64,000 bases of DNA from Acidobacteriota bacterium (lineage in GTDB: Bacteria; Acidobacteriota; Vicinamibacteria; Vicinamibacterales; CAVVIG01), in contig JAFDVO010000018.1 of assembly GCA_018268955.1 (NCBI GenBank), positions 176,576 through 240,575 on the forward strand, given 5' to 3'. Below are positions 14,225 through 46,222 of this stretch, in pieces. How positions within the stretch are numbered: position 1 is the first letter of the stretch; each line of letters begins with the position of its first letter. The notes beneath the pieces were generated by a model. It was not told the origin of the DNA and searched no databases. It worked only from the letters and a program-made list of their open reading frames with translations. A program made the position numbers and the translations under genes.

Positions 14225-14400
14225 GGCGCGGGACTCGGGACTGGGGACTCGGGACTCGGGAGATCGCAGGGCTATGGTGCTGGCCAGGGCCCCCAGGCAA
14301 GTCTTGCCATACGTCCTCTGTCCTCCGCCCTCCGCCCTCTCACCTCAGTCCTCTGTCCCTCCAACCTCCAACCTCCAACCTCCCGAGCCCCGAGTCCCGG
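14225..14400. repeat. Low-complexity mini-repeats after the che operon
   Basis: Two degenerate tandem repeats fill this gap: a GGGACTCGGGACT-type run at about 14229-14262 and a CCTCCAACCTCCAACCT-type run at about 14360-14382, between them CCTCTGTCCTCCGCCCTC. No coding potential or stable terminator is seen. Similar short-motif runs occur in other gaps of this window. Confidence 0.8.
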
Positions 14401-34754: not shown

Positions 34755-34797
34755 CAACTTTTATCGACGCATCCACATTCGTGGATACAGGTAAGTG

Positions 34798-34971
34798 CTA
34801 ATCGCTAATTGCTAATCGCTAATCGCTGAACGCTGAACGCTGAACGCAAAGTGCTGATCGCGGATCGCGCTCTGCCTTCTTCACTTTCGCAATTGACGAT
34901 TCGCATTTCGCGATTCGCCGCGCTCTCCCCGTCTTCACTTTCGCAATTGACGATTCGCATTTCGCGATTCG
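34798..34971. repeat. Two mini-repeat families downstream of the sulfite reductase gene
   Basis: First a CTAATCGCTAATTG/GAACGCTGAACGC run at about 34798-34850. Then two copies of a roughly 39-bp direct repeat (containing TTCACTTTCGCAATTGACGA and TTCGCATTTCGCGATTCGC) at about 34879-34918 and 34933-34971. The region separates the sulfite reductase stop from the hom promoter. No gene is seen. Confidence 0.85.
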
Positions 34972-36807
34972 CTACGATGCGCACTCGCCTTCCATCACCT
35001 CGGGCGTGAACTCGCCGGTCTCGGCGAGGTCGATGAAGTCGTCGGCGGTCGCGTCCTCGGCAGTGAGCTGCTCGAGGTCGGTGAGCAGTGCTTTGACAGC
35101 GGGCACCTCCACGCGCTGGAAGAAGGCGGTAGCGGACTCCCCCTCTTTCTTCTGCGCGTCGTAGTACGTGATGAGGCGCTCCACCGCTTCGGGAATCCGG
35201 CGAGCCGGAATCTTCGCGGCGGTCCGTGCGAAGGTCGCCGCCGATTCGCTCGTGCCACCGCCGACCATCACGAAGTATTGCGGGACCGCCTTGCCGCCGA
35301 CGCGACGCACGCTCCCCTGGAAGCCGATCGTTGCGATGTGATGCTGGCCGCAGCCGTTCGGGCAGCCGCTCACCTTGATGATCGCGCCGTCGGCCTTCTG
35401 CACCAGATCGGGTCGCTCGCGCAGTGTGTCGCCGAGCAGGCGTCCGAGCCCGCGCGACTGCGTCACCGCAAGGCGGCAGCACTCGGCGCCGGGGCAGCTG
35501 TTCACATCCGCCACCGTGGCCGCATCCGCGAGACCGAGGCCTGCAGCCGACAGCGCGCGATAGAGCGCCCGCAGTTCGTCGACCGGCACCCAGCGGAAGA
35601 GCAGGTTCTGGTCGACCGTCACGCGCACCGAGCCGTCGCTGTACGCACGCGAAAGGTCGGCGAGGATCCGCATCTGCTCGCTCGTCAGGTCGCCGAGCGG
35701 CACCGTCACCGTGGCGATGACGTAGCCCGACTGCTTCTGTGCGACGACGTTCGTGCGCCGCCAGTGGTTGAAGGCCACGTCGGTCGAATTGAGCACGGGC
35801 ACGACAACCGGCGTGATGCCGGGGCCACTCGGCTGCACGCGGGCGACACGCGCCACGATATCGGTCGGAAGCGGCGCATCGGCCCGCTGCCAGCCGGGCG
35901 CTGGCTCTGCGGCCGGCGAATCGAGGAACAACTGCGGCACCTGTCCTTCGCCGACGCACCAGGCGAGCGCCTTCTGGTACTCCTCGACGAAGCGGTCCCA
36001 CCCGAGCTTCTTGATCATGAACTTCATGCGGTTCCGCTGGCGATGCTCGTAATCGCCATGCTCCTTGAAGACCATCAGGCAGGCTTCGCTGACGCGGAAC
36101 AGCTCCGTTGCCGGGATGAACTCGTGCAGCGTCCCGGCCGACTTGCACATCAGCGCAGTGCCACCGCCCGCGAGCACGGTGAAGCCGCGTTCGCCATTGG
36201 GGCCGACCTGCGCCTTGAAGGCCAGATCGTTGATGGCAATCGCGGTGTGGTCCTCGCGGCATCCCTCGAACGCGATCTTGAACTTGCGCGGCAGCGTGGA
36301 GCTGAGGCGGTGCCGCAGCAGGAAGCGGGTCAGCGCCTCGGAGTACGGCGTCACGTCGAAGAGCTCGTCCGCCGACACGCCGGCCAACGGGCACGCGGTG
36401 ATGTTGCGCACCGAGTTGCCGCACGCCTCCCGCGTGGTCATGCCCACCTCGGCGAGGAGGCGCATGGCCGGCTCCATGTCGTGGATCTTGATGAAGTGCA
36501 GCTGGATGTTCTGCCGCGTCGTGATGTGGCCGAACCGCCGTGAGTACCTGTCCGCCACATCGGCCAGCGCGCCAAGCTGCGCGCTCGTGATCGCGCCCTG
36601 CGGGATCTTCACGCGCAGCATCGAGGCATCGTAGGACTGCCGCTGTCCGTAGGTGCCGCGCAGCAGGCGGAACGATCGCCACTGGTCGGGCGTAATCTCG
36701 CCACGCTCGTACTTCTCGAGCATGACGACGAACTCGTCGATGTCCGCCTCGTTGGCGAACGAGAGCCGCGCGCGGCCGTGTGTGCTGATCGTCTCGTGTC
36801 CTGCCAT
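34972..36807 (-). CDS. Siroheme-dependent sulfite (or nitrite) reductase
   Basis: About 611 residues from the ATG at 36807, preceded by GAGG. Two ferredoxin-like/sulfite reductase half-domain pairs: FGHITTRQNIQLHF and SVRNITACPLAGV in the first, SVRVTVDQNLLFRWV in the second. The siroheme-[4Fe-4S] cysteines are C-x5-C (SCPGAECCRLA) and C-x3-C (SGCPNGCGQHH). It performs the six-electron reduction of sulfite to sulfide (or nitrite to ammonium), probably with ferredoxin. The poly-Cys leader upstream argues for sulfite and cysteine synthesis. Third gene of the operon precorrin-2 dehydrogenase, cobA, reductase, giving enzyme and cofactor together. Confidence 0.9.
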   Translation of the reverse strand: MAGHETISTHGRARLSFANEADIDEFVVMLEKYERGEITPDQWRSFRLLRGTYGQRQSYDASMLRVKIPQGAITSAQLGALADVADRYSRRFGHITTRQNIQLHFIKIHDMEPAMRLLAEVGMTTREACGNSVRNITACPLAGVSADELFDVTPYSEALTRFLLRHRLSSTLPRKFKIAFEGCREDHTAIAINDLAFKAQVGPNGERGFTVLAGGGTALMCKSAGTLHEFIPATELFRVSEACLMVFKEHGDYEHRQRNRMKFMIKKLGWDRFVEEYQKALAWCVGEGQVPQLFLDSPAAEPAPGWQRADAPLPTDIVARVARVQPSGPGITPVVVPVLNSTDVAFNHWRRTNVVAQKQSGYVIATVTVPLGDLTSEQMRILADLSRAYSDGSVRVTVDQNLLFRWVPVDELRALYRALSAAGLGLADAATVADVNSCPGAECCRLAVTQSRGLGRLLGDTLRERPDLVQKADGAIIKVSGCPNGCGQHHIATIGFQGSVRRVGGKAVPQYFVMVGGGTSESAATFARTAAKIPARRIPEAVERLITYYDAQKKEGESATAFFQRVEVPAVKALLTDLEQLTAEDATADDFIDLAETGEFTPEVMEGECAS

Positions 36808-36889
36808 TCTCAATCCTCGCGCCGCAGATCCCCAGGCGGGCTCGCCGCGGCTGTTGGTCGATCGTCTCCGGTGAATTCCCGTTGCGGTT

Positions 36890-37717
36890 TCAGCGCGGAC
36901 GCCGGCGCGTCCGTTCACGGCGTGCGGGCACCTCACCCTCATCCACCGGGTGGTGCGCGGTGTCTTCCGCGTCCTTCAGCGCACGGAGCGCCGAGCCGTC
37001 GAGCTGCAGCGCGGCCACCGCACCGAATACCAGTACCGCAGGTCCGTCTGTCTCAGCGGCCGCGTCGCCCGCCGCAAGCGCCTGCAGCGTTCCTCGCCAC
37101 GCCTGCTGTGTCGGCAGCGTGCCGTCCGCAACGATGGCGACCGGCGTGCTCACGTCCCAGCCCCCGTCGCGCAGTTCGCTGGCGATTTCGGCCCGGCGGC
37201 TGTATCCCATGAGGACCACGAGGGTGATGCCGTTCGGACGGATGGCGCCAACGGCGCGCGTGAACACCTCGGCGTCATGGCCGCTGACGACAAGGAATCC
37301 CGAGGCGTGATCGCGATGCGTCACGGGGATGCCCGCGCTCGCGGGCGCGGCAATCGCACTGCTCACGCCCGGGACGACGTCGTACGGGATGCCCGCGCGC
37401 TCGAGCGCCTGTGCCTCCTCGCCGCCGCGACCGAACACGAACGGGTCGCCGCCCTTGAGCCGCACGACGCGCCGCCCTCGACGCGCCTGGCTGACCAACA
37501 CCTGCTGGATCTCCTGCTGCGAGAGGGCATGCCGACCTGCACGTTTGCCGACGTAGAAGCGCTGGGCGCGACGCGCGAGCCCGACGACGCGCTCGTCGAC
37601 GAGCGCATCGTAGAGGACCAGGTCCGCGCGCCGCAGCGCGATCGCCGCCTTGCGCGTGAGGAGCCCGGGATCCCCTGGCCCCGCCCCGACGAGCGACACA
37701 TGTCCAACCTTCAGCAT
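36890..37717 (-). CDS. cobA: Uroporphyrinogen-III C-methyltransferase
   Basis: About 275 residues from the ATG at 37717, preceded by AAAGGACAG and sharing one base with the upstream stop (TGATG). SAM-dependent SUMT/CobA: N-terminal VSLVGAGPGDPGLLT, VYVGKR-like FYVGKRAG, VVRLKGGDPFVFGRGGEE and VPGVSSAIAAPASAGIPVTH (in part). It methylates uroporphyrinogen III twice to precorrin-2, the first step to siroheme. A basic, low-complexity tail (RRERTRRRPR) ends the protein. Second gene of the siroheme/sulfite operon. Confidence 0.95.
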   Translation of the reverse strand: MLKVGHVSLVGAGPGDPGLLTRKAAIALRRADLVLYDALVDERVVGLARRAQRFYVGKRAGRHALSQQEIQQVLVSQARRGRRVVRLKGGDPFVFGRGGEEAQALERAGIPYDVVPGVSSAIAAPASAGIPVTHRDHASGFLVVSGHDAEVFTRAVGAIRPNGITLVVLMGYSRRAEIASELRDGGWDVSTPVAIVADGTLPTQQAWRGTLQALAAGDAAAETDGPAVLVFGAVAALQLDGSALRALKDAEDTAHHPVDEGEVPARRERTRRRPR

Positions 37718-38346
37718 CACTGTCCTTTCGCGCCGGACGTCGCCGCCACGCACACGCCCACGACGTCCCTCGCCGCGGCCGCCCCCTCACGCGCGGCGTA
37801 CAGCCGGTTCAGCGCCTTCAGCAGCCGAGGACGCCGTTGCTCCATCGGCAGCCCCTCACGACGCCACTCGGCGCGCGACTGGCGCGCGGTCGCCATCCAC
37901 GACGGCAGGTCCTGCGGCAGCAGCGCATCGAGCCCTTCGCGCAGCAGCCCGGCGATCGCGGGAGCCTCGCCGCTCGTCGAGATGGCGAGCGTGACGCCAT
38001 CACGGCGCACGACACCGCCCAGGTACGCCGTCGCGTTCGGCGGATCGTCCACGGCGTTCACGAAGATCCGCCTCGCCTCCGCCGCATCGGCGACCTGGCG
38101 GTTCACCTCCGGCGTCGCCGCCGCCACCACCAGCCACGCATCGTCCAGGTCGGAGGGCACGAACGTCCGCCGCTCGATCTCGACCGGCGCCTGCGCGACA
38201 TTCGGGTGCACGTCTGGCGCGATGACCCGCACGTGGGCCCCGGCCGCCAGCAGCGAGCCGAGCTTGCTGGCGCCAACCGGCCCCGCCCCGACGAGGACGA
38301 CGCGCCGGCCGCGGACATGAAGGAAGAGCGGCAACAGTTCGCGCAT
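37717..38346 (-). CDS. Precorrin-2 dehydrogenase/sirohydrochlorin ferrochelatase (CysG N-terminal type)
   Basis: 209 residues, like the N-terminal half of CysG or Met8. NAD-binding VVLVGAGPVGASKLGSLLAAG (in part VVLVGAGPVGASK), IFVNAVDDPPNATAYLGG and AISTSGEAPAIAGLLREGL, with a C-terminal helical domain. It oxidises precorrin-2 to sirohydrochlorin and inserts iron to make siroheme. The start is clear from alignment with the family (MRELLPLFLHVRGRRV). Notably the ATG follows directly after the U-tract of an intrinsic terminator, with no Shine-Dalgarno, so its expression must depend on readthrough and unusual initiation. First structural gene of the operon. Confidence 0.92.
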   Translation of the reverse strand: MRELLPLFLHVRGRRVVLVGAGPVGASKLGSLLAAGAHVRVIAPDVHPNVAQAPVEIERRTFVPSDLDDAWLVVAAATPEVNRQVADAAEARRIFVNAVDDPPNATAYLGGVVRRDGVTLAISTSGEAPAIAGLLREGLDALLPQDLPSWMATARQSRAEWRREGLPMEQRRPRLLKALNRLYAAREGAAAARDVVGVCVAATSGAKGQ

Positions 38347-38387
38347 AAAACAAAAAAAGGCCCGGGCAGCGAGATGCCACCCGGGCC
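38347..38387 (-). terminator. Intrinsic terminator between the Cys leader peptide and the siroheme/sulfite operon
   Basis: On the minus strand, GGCCCGGG (38387-38380) and CCCGGGCC (38366-38359) form a perfect 8-bp GC stem around a 13-nt loop, followed by TTTTTTTGTTTT (38358-38347). The U-tract exists only on this strand. It ends exactly at the ATG of the next gene. The 5' arm with its flank GGGTGG (38382-38377) can alternatively pair with CCGCCC (38465-38460) in the leader ORF. This is the layout of a transcription attenuator. Confidence 0.88.
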
Positions 38388-38415
38388 GGTGCGTTCAGGA
38401 CCTACAGTTCGACAG

Positions 38416-38499
38416 TTACTCGAAGCGTGCTGATGAATGGACCTGTACGGCTGGCGCGGGGGCGGGAACCGCCACGCAACAACAGCAACAGGCGCACAT
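38416..38499 (-). CDS. Poly-cysteine leader peptide (attenuator ORF)
   Basis: A 27-codon ORF from the ATG at 38499 to a TAA at 38416. It begins MCACCCCCVAVPAPAPAV: six of the first eight codons are Cys (TGC/TGT). The rest is Val/Ala/Pro-rich. No recognisable domain; the role is inferred to be cysteine sensing by the translating ribosome, as in known amino-acid leader peptides. Directly after the Cys codons the mRNA has a hairpin GGCGG-TTC-CCGCC (38473-38461). The stop is 28 nt before the terminator stem. The Shine-Dalgarno is weak (GAAG, 38504-38507). Downstream genes make siroheme and reduce sulfite for cysteine synthesis, which fits the sensing idea closely. Cysteine-rich leader peptides of this kind are described in actinobacteria. 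Confidence 0.75.
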   Translation of the reverse strand: MCACCCCCVAVPAPAPAVQVHSSARFE

Positions 38500-38520
38500 C
38501 GACTTCAGCACGGTCCAATA

Positions 38521-38550
38521 CAAGTACTCTCTCCACGGTGTCGCGGTCAA
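38521..38550 (-). promoter_or_regulatory. Candidate promoter of the Cys leader and siroheme/sulfite operon
   Basis: TTGACC (38545-38550) on the minus strand matches five of six -35 bases. A weak TACTTG (38521-38526) lies 18 bp on. Predicted start near 38513 gives a short 5' leader of about 14 nt before the ATG of the Cys peptide. The stretch further upstream, 38565-38615, is an AATGCAAGAACGCAGG-type mini-repeat. Confidence 0.4.
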
Positions 38551-44395: not shown

Positions 44396-44803
44396 ATGAA
44401 GATCTTCCGCAACGACGCCACACCTTTCCGACCGGCCGATGTGAACTCCTTCGTCGGTCCCGCGCAGACGAAGCTGCTCGCCTCGTCGGACGAAGCGACG
44501 CCGGTGCACGTCTACCGCGTCCAGTTCGACGCCGGTGCGCGCACGAACTGGCATCACCACTCCGGCCCGCAGTGGCTCTTCGTCGTCGAGGGCCGGATTC
44601 GCGTGCAGACCGACGGAGGTCAGCCGCAGGATCTCGAGACGGGCGATGCCGTCGTCATCGCGCCGGGCGAGAAGCACTGGCACGGAGCGGTGCCCGGCCA
44701 GCGCGGCGTGCACCTCGCGGTCAACGTCAACGCGCAGACGACCTGGCTCGAGCCGGTTGCGGACGAGGTGTACGAGCCGACGTTCGACCCGCAAGGAAGT
44801 TAG
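44396..44803 (+). CDS. Cupin-domain protein
   Basis: 135 residues, a single cupin barrel. Metal-binding motif 1 GARTNWHHHSGPQWLFVVEG and motif 2 GDAVVIAPGEKHWHGAVPG are both complete, with the His and Glu-position ligands mostly recognisable. It resembles the cupin_2 proteins found as stand-alone, QdoI-like or carboxymuconolactone-associated proteins. Substrate unknown. Divergent from the cytochrome c gene, 72 bp apart. Followed by mini-repeats. Confidence 0.88.
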   Translation: MKIFRNDATPFRPADVNSFVGPAQTKLLASSDEATPVHVYRVQFDAGARTNWHHHSGPQWLFVVEGRIRVQTDGGQPQDLETGDAVVIAPGEKHWHGAVPGQRGVHLAVNVNAQTTWLEPVADEVYEPTFDPQGS

Positions 44804-45060
44804 ACGTTAGAAGTTAGACGTTAGAACTTAGGGTGCTGAATTCAGAAGTTCCGGAGGGCGGAGGACGGAGCGCGGAGGGCGGAGCCCCGAAGCCTCGGAG
44901 CGCAGGTGAGAACCCGAAGCCGACCCCGCCTGGAGCCCGCAGTCCGAAGCCCGAAGCCTCGGAGCGCAGTGAGAACCCGAAGCCGACACCGGCCGGAGCC
45001 CAAAGTCCGAAGCCCGAAGCCGAAGGTTTGGACAGATGTAGGCACTCCGTTTGCGACGCT
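44804..45060. repeat. Composite mini-repeat region
   Basis: A GAAGTTAGACGTTAGAA-type run (44797-44830), a GGAGGGCGGAGGACGGAG-type run (44850-44885), then two copies of a unit of about 53 bp (CCGAAGCCTCGGAGCGCAG, TGAGAACCCGAAGCCGAC) starting at 44887 and 44951, trailing into CCGAAGCCCGAAGCCGAAGG. It looks like expanded slippage DNA. No gene seen. Confidence 0.85.
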
Positions 45061-46146: not shown

Positions 46147-46222
46147 GCCGGCGTAGCTCAGTTGGTAGAGCAGCTGATTCGTAATCAGCAGGTCACGTGT
46201 TCGAGTCACGTCGCCGGCTCCA
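46147..46222 (+). tRNA. tRNA-Thr (anticodon CGT)
   Basis: Complete cloverleaf of 76 nt with encoded CCA: acceptor GCCGGCG/CGCCGGC (perfect), D-arm GCTC-AGTTGGTA-GAGC, anticodon arm GCTGA-TTCGTAA-TCAGC with anticodon CGT (reads ACG, Thr), T-arm ACGTG-TTCGAGT-CACGT, discriminator T then CCA. Its 3' end borders a gene-poor stretch, a common site of element insertion. Confidence 0.93.

Follow-up and report, generated by a model that had tools for sequence, protein, structure and literature searches.

The stretch of DNA analysed here, 64,000 nucleotides (nt) from an Acidobacteriota bacterium (contig JAFDVO010000018.1) and referred to below as the window, carries on its minus strand a short open reading frame (ORF) with a run of cysteine (Cys) codons, a small hairpin and an intrinsic terminator, lying directly ahead of genes for siroheme synthesis and sulfite reduction. 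We propose that this leader is a ribosome-mediated transcription attenuator that senses Cys-tRNA and is used before a set of sulfur operons, a reading to which we give a probability of about 0.9. Its basis in sequence comprises the ORF, the Cys codons, the alternative pairings and their coevolution, the terminator, the promoter geometry and the gene context. A preliminary description of the DNA had already reported the poly-Cys ORF, the hairpin and the terminator before siroheme and sulfite-reductase genes; all are present when the coordinates are re-read on the minus strand, and Pfam domains agree with its naming of precorrin-2 dehydrogenase, cobA and a siroheme reductase downstream. The features are as follows, in the direction of transcription.

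38521..38550, minus strand: putative promoter, -35 box TTGACC 38550-38545, 18-nt spacer, -10 box TACTTG 38526-38521 (TTGAC..TA conserved at this place)
38416..38511, minus strand: leader ORF from its likely start GTG 38511 (VLKSMCACCCCCVAV...) to stop TAA 38418-38416 (start codon in frame, 9 nt past the -10 box)
ATG 38499 to TAA 38416, minus strand: leader ORF as first described, MCACCCCCVAVPAPAPAVQVHSSARFE, 27 codons
38476..38496, minus strand: six putative regulatory Cys codons, TGC.GCC.TGT.TGC.TGT.TGT.TGC (ORF reading; Cys runs in about 110 related leaders)
38469..38473, minus strand: strand 1, GGCGG, 5' arm of the hairpin directly behind the Cys codons (sequence reading)
38449..38465, minus strand: strand 2, CCGCCCCCGCGCCAGCC, partner of strand 1 in the hairpin or of strand 3 in the antiterminator (coevolution with strand 3)
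38376..38390, minus strand: strand 3, ACCGGCCCGGGTGGC, terminator 5' arm and flank (terminator scan, alignment)
38359..38370, minus strand: strand 4, GCTGCCCGGGCC, terminator 3' arm (terminator helix: 97.5% paired cells, double-sided changes in 32)
38347..38358, minus strand: U-tract TTTTTTTGTTTT, extending up to the first gene's start codon (sequence reading, terminator scan)
37717..38346, minus strand: sirC-like precorrin-2 dehydrogenase (Pfam NAD_binding_7, Sirohm_synth_M)
36890..37753, minus strand: cobA-like uroporphyrinogen methyltransferase (Pfam TP_methylase; SUMT-type)
34972..36942, minus strand: sulfite/nitrite reductase with two NIR_SIR and two ferredoxin-like half domains (Pfam)

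All six Cys codons (TGC or TGT) fall in codons 2-8 of the ORF that begins at ATG 38499, and they are followed immediately by the hairpin, in which GGCGG (38473-38469) and CCGCC (38465-38461) enclose a TTC loop. The terminator stem, from 38387 to 38359, leads into TTTTTTT at 38358-38352, and 5 nt separate this T-run from ATG 38346, where the precorrin-2 dehydrogenase gene begins. Described at first as an 8 bp stem, it comprises 12 pairs in the terminator scan, 10 of them G-C, and is hence stronger than supposed. The proposed alternative partners, GGGTGG (38382-38377) and CCGCCC (38465-38460), lie where they had been placed, and the interval 38347-38499 originally assigned to the element leaves out the promoter at 38550-38521.

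The start of the leader was examined across 113 related leaders. TTGAC followed by a -10 box starting with TA, at a spacing of 16-19 nt (mostly 17 or 18), occurs in 61 of the 113, as against none of 78 control stretches further upstream; the window leader's own -10 box is a weak match. In-frame start codons lie 8-10 nt behind the -10 box in 42 leaders, where about 5 would be expected from the rate per three positions further on, and out-of-frame starts at that distance number 0. Transcription usually begins about 8-10 nt behind a -10 box, and the leader mRNA is therefore probably leaderless. By the same geometry the window ORF probably starts at GTG 38511 rather than at ATG 38499, so that the Cys run of the ORF first described holds while its start probably does not, ATG being codon 5 and GTG, four codons earlier, the likelier initiator. 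The codon usage of the runs is skewed: leaders use TGT 160 times and TGC 95 times, the window genes TGT 13 and TGC 73 times. The rarer Cys codon is favoured in leaders, as would suit a sensor, though avoidance of pairing could also account for the bias.

Conservation and coevolution of the leader

A precorrin-2 dehydrogenase gene was found in 72 of 120 genomes of the order Vicinamibacterales, and the named relatives of the window protein are mostly Acidobacteriota, many labelled Vicinamibacteria (a class within that phylum), Vicinamibacterales or Luteitalea, on which basis the window genome is placed in this order. An in-frame Cys run followed by a terminator lies upstream of somewhat less than half of the sirC loci, in several families; 49 distinct leader candidates were listed and 48 kept, L058 being dropped as a probable false leader. 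When a terminator and four or more Cys within nine codons were required in the 600 nt upstream of the homologous genes, 38 of 108 regions qualified, against 0 in ten rounds of dinucleotide shuffles and 2 on the reverse strand, so the arrangement is not due to chance. The search of homologous operons suggested in the preliminary description has thus returned a Cys-rich ORF and terminator conserved in several families. The distance from the last Cys codon to the terminator is kept at 65-95 nt, mostly 84-95, despite peptides that differ beyond the Cys run. The closest relative, with 83% protein identity and the same leader (L064, contig CALQBJ020000131.1), is titled Bifidobacterium breve; this title is very probably a mislabelling and potentially misleading, because a Cys leader has been reported for Bifidobacterium longum.

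The pairings were assessed in a MAFFT alignment of 44 leaders, made from sequence alone. The terminator helix is paired in 97.5% of cells, with 32 cells changed on both sides, a level reached in 0 of 500 shuffles. The outer antiterminator helix (columns 46-55 with 118-127) is paired in 77.6% of cells with 21 double-sided changes; again 0 of 500 shuffles reach it, and every slid version is worse. At columns 48/125/157 a switch from C-G-C to U-A-U changes strands 2, 3 and 4 jointly, so that the strand 3 base retains both partners. Both alternative helices therefore covary, as the preliminary description had proposed to check.

The register of the inner antiterminator part shifts between families, and an energy-based test was hence used. 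Pairing energies favour each leader's own combination of strands 2 and 3 over combinations between leaders (z -8.3), the spacer control being null. Because related leaders are not independent, whole families were also permuted: the true assignment of strand 2 to strand 3 ranks first, both among the 720 possible for GTDB families, where the spacer control was null, and among the 40,320 possible for eight blocks, part of them defined by leader class. These swap and block tests replaced duplex z-scores against mononucleotide shuffles, which are modest (median -1.2) because all the sequence is G+C rich. Strands 1 and 2 likewise pair better with their own partners than with swapped ones, and the hairpin is present in most leaders. 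In L087, where strand 3 is CTCGGGGG instead of CCCGGG, strand 2 matches it through a long unbroken duplex (-35.8 kcal/mol) and the terminator is weakened. On these comparisons, coevolution of the proposed antiterminator between families is well supported, and with it the mutually exclusive pairings.

Proposed mechanism and competing explanations

We propose that RNA polymerase would start from the promoter at 38550-38521, giving an mRNA whose 5' end would lie at or beside GTG 38511 and onto which a ribosome could load at once. With sufficient Cys-tRNA, the ribosome would pass the six Cys codons and cover strand 2, itself part of the ORF, during synthesis of strands 3 and 4; the terminator would then form and transcription would end before sirC. 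With Cys-tRNA in short supply, the ribosome would stall in the Cys run and cover strand 1, leaving strand 2 free for strand 3; this pairing would preclude the terminator, and the sulfite-reduction operon would be transcribed. That the ribosome stalls, that transcription reads through, the direction of the response and the leaderless start of the mRNA are what we infer from the sequence. The earlier suggestion that stalling at Cys codons frees the antiterminator strand gains support from the conservation and from the coevolution of strands 2 and 3.

Equilibrium folding did not distinguish the stalled from the free state, so truncated transcripts lacking strand 4 were folded. When the transcript ends at strand 3 and a ribosome occupies the last Cys codon, strand 3 is predicted to pair mostly with strand 2 in 44 of 44 leaders (0.56-1.00); covering strand 2 gives the terminator at a mean probability of 0.97 across the 44. 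Ribosome masking can only remove competitors, so that the stalled-versus-free comparison is not strong evidence alone.

Several findings weigh against this mechanism. More than half of the sirC homologues have no leader directly upstream, and two relatives (L005 and L007) retain the terminator before sirC with no Cys ORF seen. The A2 alignment and the covariance model R1, built from 44 leaders, derive from loci picked for Cys runs and terminators, and the conservation of these parts is partly a product of selection; the pairing of strands 2 and 3 and the regulon genes played no part in that choice. The equilibrium fold of the full transcript is the terminator in most leaders even when stalled, the window leader included, so the switch must be kinetic, as is likewise assumed for other attenuators such as trp and his. 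Finally, equilibrium folding of the free RNA gives the antiterminator in 33 of 44 leaders as well, which means that the role of the first hairpin is weak or kinetic. As a separate observation, L005 and L007 keep promoter-like DNA together with the conserved terminator, and may be decayed attenuators.

Among the alternatives, translational attenuation as proposed for mycobacteria survives best, improbable as we consider it: the leader would gate ribosome entry at the first gene, and the stem ahead of the start codon would sequester instead of terminating. It could draw on the T-run that abuts the sirC ATG in the window and several relatives, with a clear Shine-Dalgarno sequence not seen, and on mycobacterial and related Cys leaders, which have no conserved terminator (PMC1262725) and are reported, in a paper citing the original work, to regulate translation (Canestrari 2020 via PMC9031893). 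Nearly all copies, however, present the hairpin as a G+C-rich stem with a T-run, and in many it ends 40-350 nt before the gene, where it cannot mask the start site (L014, L015, L023, L033, L034, L052). A riboswitch for cysteine, O-acetylserine or S-adenosylmethionine that overlaps a short ORF by chance is very unlikely, for all that a conserved structure does stand before sulfur genes: no Rfam family scores above its gathering threshold (the best, NsiR1, reaches 22.8 bits against 39), and what is conserved is the Cys codons, the complementarity and the spacing, with helix sequences that vary and a conserved unpaired core not seen. It is just as hard to credit that the ORF encodes a working Cys-rich small protein, such as a metal or sulfur carrier, whose transcript the terminator merely closes: the ORF is indeed conserved with its start at a conserved place, but its residues outside the Cys run vary except where the DNA is strands 1 and 2, its length and Cys number vary, and it stands directly upstream of several unrelated operons.

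A dispersed set of sulfur operons

The attenuator had been described as serving the siroheme operon, a view that proves too narrow, as R1 matches place the element before a set of sulfur genes. In the window's own genome R1 finds three copies: that before sirC-cobA-sir (E-value, E, 1.6e-12), one before cysD-cysN (E 3.6e-9; leader MSTCCRRACCCPDALGPVLRGRASQRTTR) and one before a redoxin-domain protein (E 9.3e-8; leader MHVRFACAACCCGGDPSSPALLCLQP), the next match coming only at E 0.016. The pattern TGYTGYTGYTGY, with 62 places in this genome against 48 for a control pattern, is uninformative alone. At E 0.1, 122 of 149 genomes of the order match; among the matches listed, to about E 1e-4, 126 lie in 94 genomes, with at least two in 26 genomes and at least three in 6. 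A Cys run is present in nearly all of the matches that were fetched.

The first genes behind these leaders are cysD, TauE/SafE, sirC, redoxin, DUF2061-cysH, cysH, cysK-like pyridoxal phosphate (PLP) enzymes and SUMT, together with an ATP-grasp protein, a PF03601 transporter, peroxiredoxin, SsuA/NMT1-like proteins, TonB-type receptors and one porin. Across the order, the downstream genes belong nearly all to cysteine synthesis, sulfur transport or thiol redox. As only operons containing sirC entered the training of R1, the other first genes are an independent sign of a sulfur or thiol role. Among individual loci, a RimK-like ATP-grasp protein stands behind Cys leaders in L213 (275-1231), L214, L217, L226 and L230, followed in L213 and L217 by a monooxygenase-like ORF, and is a candidate for a sulfur or thiol pathway. 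At 12 loci (L146, 224-1450 on the minus strand, and 11 more) Cys leaders precede a protein of redoxin/AhpC type that has a signal-like start and a long N-terminal domain.

In a sample of the phylum, clear R1 matches are confined to the class Vicinamibacteria, including a second order-level group in which the leader precedes cysH (MCCCC, MRGACCC). A single match from another class (MGFENIKFCICCCRKFAPK) precedes sulfite reductase, and the upstream regions of that gene in the same class hold more Cys ORFs, followed at about 110 nt by terminators (G346, G361 and G327; more weakly G354 and G320). Since diverged Cys ORFs and terminators thus precede sulfite reductase in a second class, the leader is older, or has been invented more often, than R1 can detect. 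R1 matches at E 1e-4 to 1e-3 outside the class were mostly bare terminators, and a search of the phylum for a Cys run plus GGCCCGG returned mostly noise. We regard as an even chance the broader proposal that a leaderless poly-Cys transcription attenuator, dispersed over many operons, is the main control of the cysteine and sulfur-assimilation genes in Vicinamibacteria and, through diverged copies, in one or more other classes of Acidobacteriota, in the place held elsewhere by protein regulators such as CysB or CymR; the leader before the secreted redoxin, the ATP-grasp enzyme, the TauE and PF03601 transporters and the TonB-type receptors would then be a guide to new sulfur genes.

Around the window copy, the gene ahead of the leader encodes a 3-methyladenine DNA glycosylase and stops some 250 nt short of the terminator, the leader promoter lying between the two. 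Beyond the reductase, a repeat-filled gap is followed by homoserine dehydrogenase and a PLP enzyme resembling threonine synthase (Pfam). Intergenic arrays of 7-bp units lie at window positions 34792-34972, 14229-14383 and 44796-44884 (GCTAATC, CGCTGAA, CCTCCAA, CGGGACT, GAAGTTA, CGGAGGG); the period is common to the three places, the units differ by place, and a 54-bp unit occurs twice at 34866-34972. A tRNA gene at 46147-46219 is the sole Rfam match in the window.

Comparison with known attenuators

The element had been thought possibly undescribed in this lineage, and no report of Cys attenuators in Acidobacteriota was found in a literature search that misses most subscription journals; in one survey, no functions are assigned to the attenuators of Acidobacteria (PMC2965389). 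The actinobacterial poly-Cys leaders (Seliverstov et al. 2005, PMC1262725) likewise place a short Cys-run ORF before cysteine and sulfur operons. For the mycobacterial leaders, a leaderless start, which the sequence geometry here would fit, and a response to cysteine are reported by papers citing Canestrari et al. 2020 (PMC9031893, PMC9094748, PMC13236596), and several copies per genome occur both here and in M. tuberculosis, with its set of six small ORFs (PMC9094748). In Actinobacteria there is no conserved terminator and action on translation is described, whereas the leaders in Acidobacteriota have a conserved intrinsic terminator with a coevolving antiterminator. The motif uORFC-8-2 before cysS of Rhodobacterales (PMC8632094) also combines Cys codons in an upstream ORF with a terminator and U-run, and ribosome-mediated attenuation was proposed for it. 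Its 145 alphaproteobacterial examples occur only before cysS, and their two tandem Cys codons, at position ~14-15, fall within the first stem; the leaders found here have many target genes and mostly 3-7 Cys codons, which come before the first stem. Among the first genes behind R1 leaders, cysS was not recognised.

The classical trp, his, leu and ilv attenuators of Proteobacteria comprise regulatory codons, four strands, a first hairpin, an antiterminator and an intrinsic terminator. All of these are common to the present leader, which departs from them in its use of cysteine, in having strand 2 inside the ORF, in its probable leaderless start and in the placing of one element type at many operons. 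The best-known cases of leader-peptide attenuation are individual operons in Proteobacteria and Actinobacteria; in this large, hard-to-grow lineage a single attenuator type seems to act as a cysteine regulon. Such an attenuator would name the signal of its regulon, flag unknown genes as belonging to sulfur metabolism and couple a probable leaderless start to transcription attenuation. Cys leaders themselves are known already, and what is probably new is four-strand transcription attenuation keyed to cysteine, apparently leaderless and spread as a regulon.
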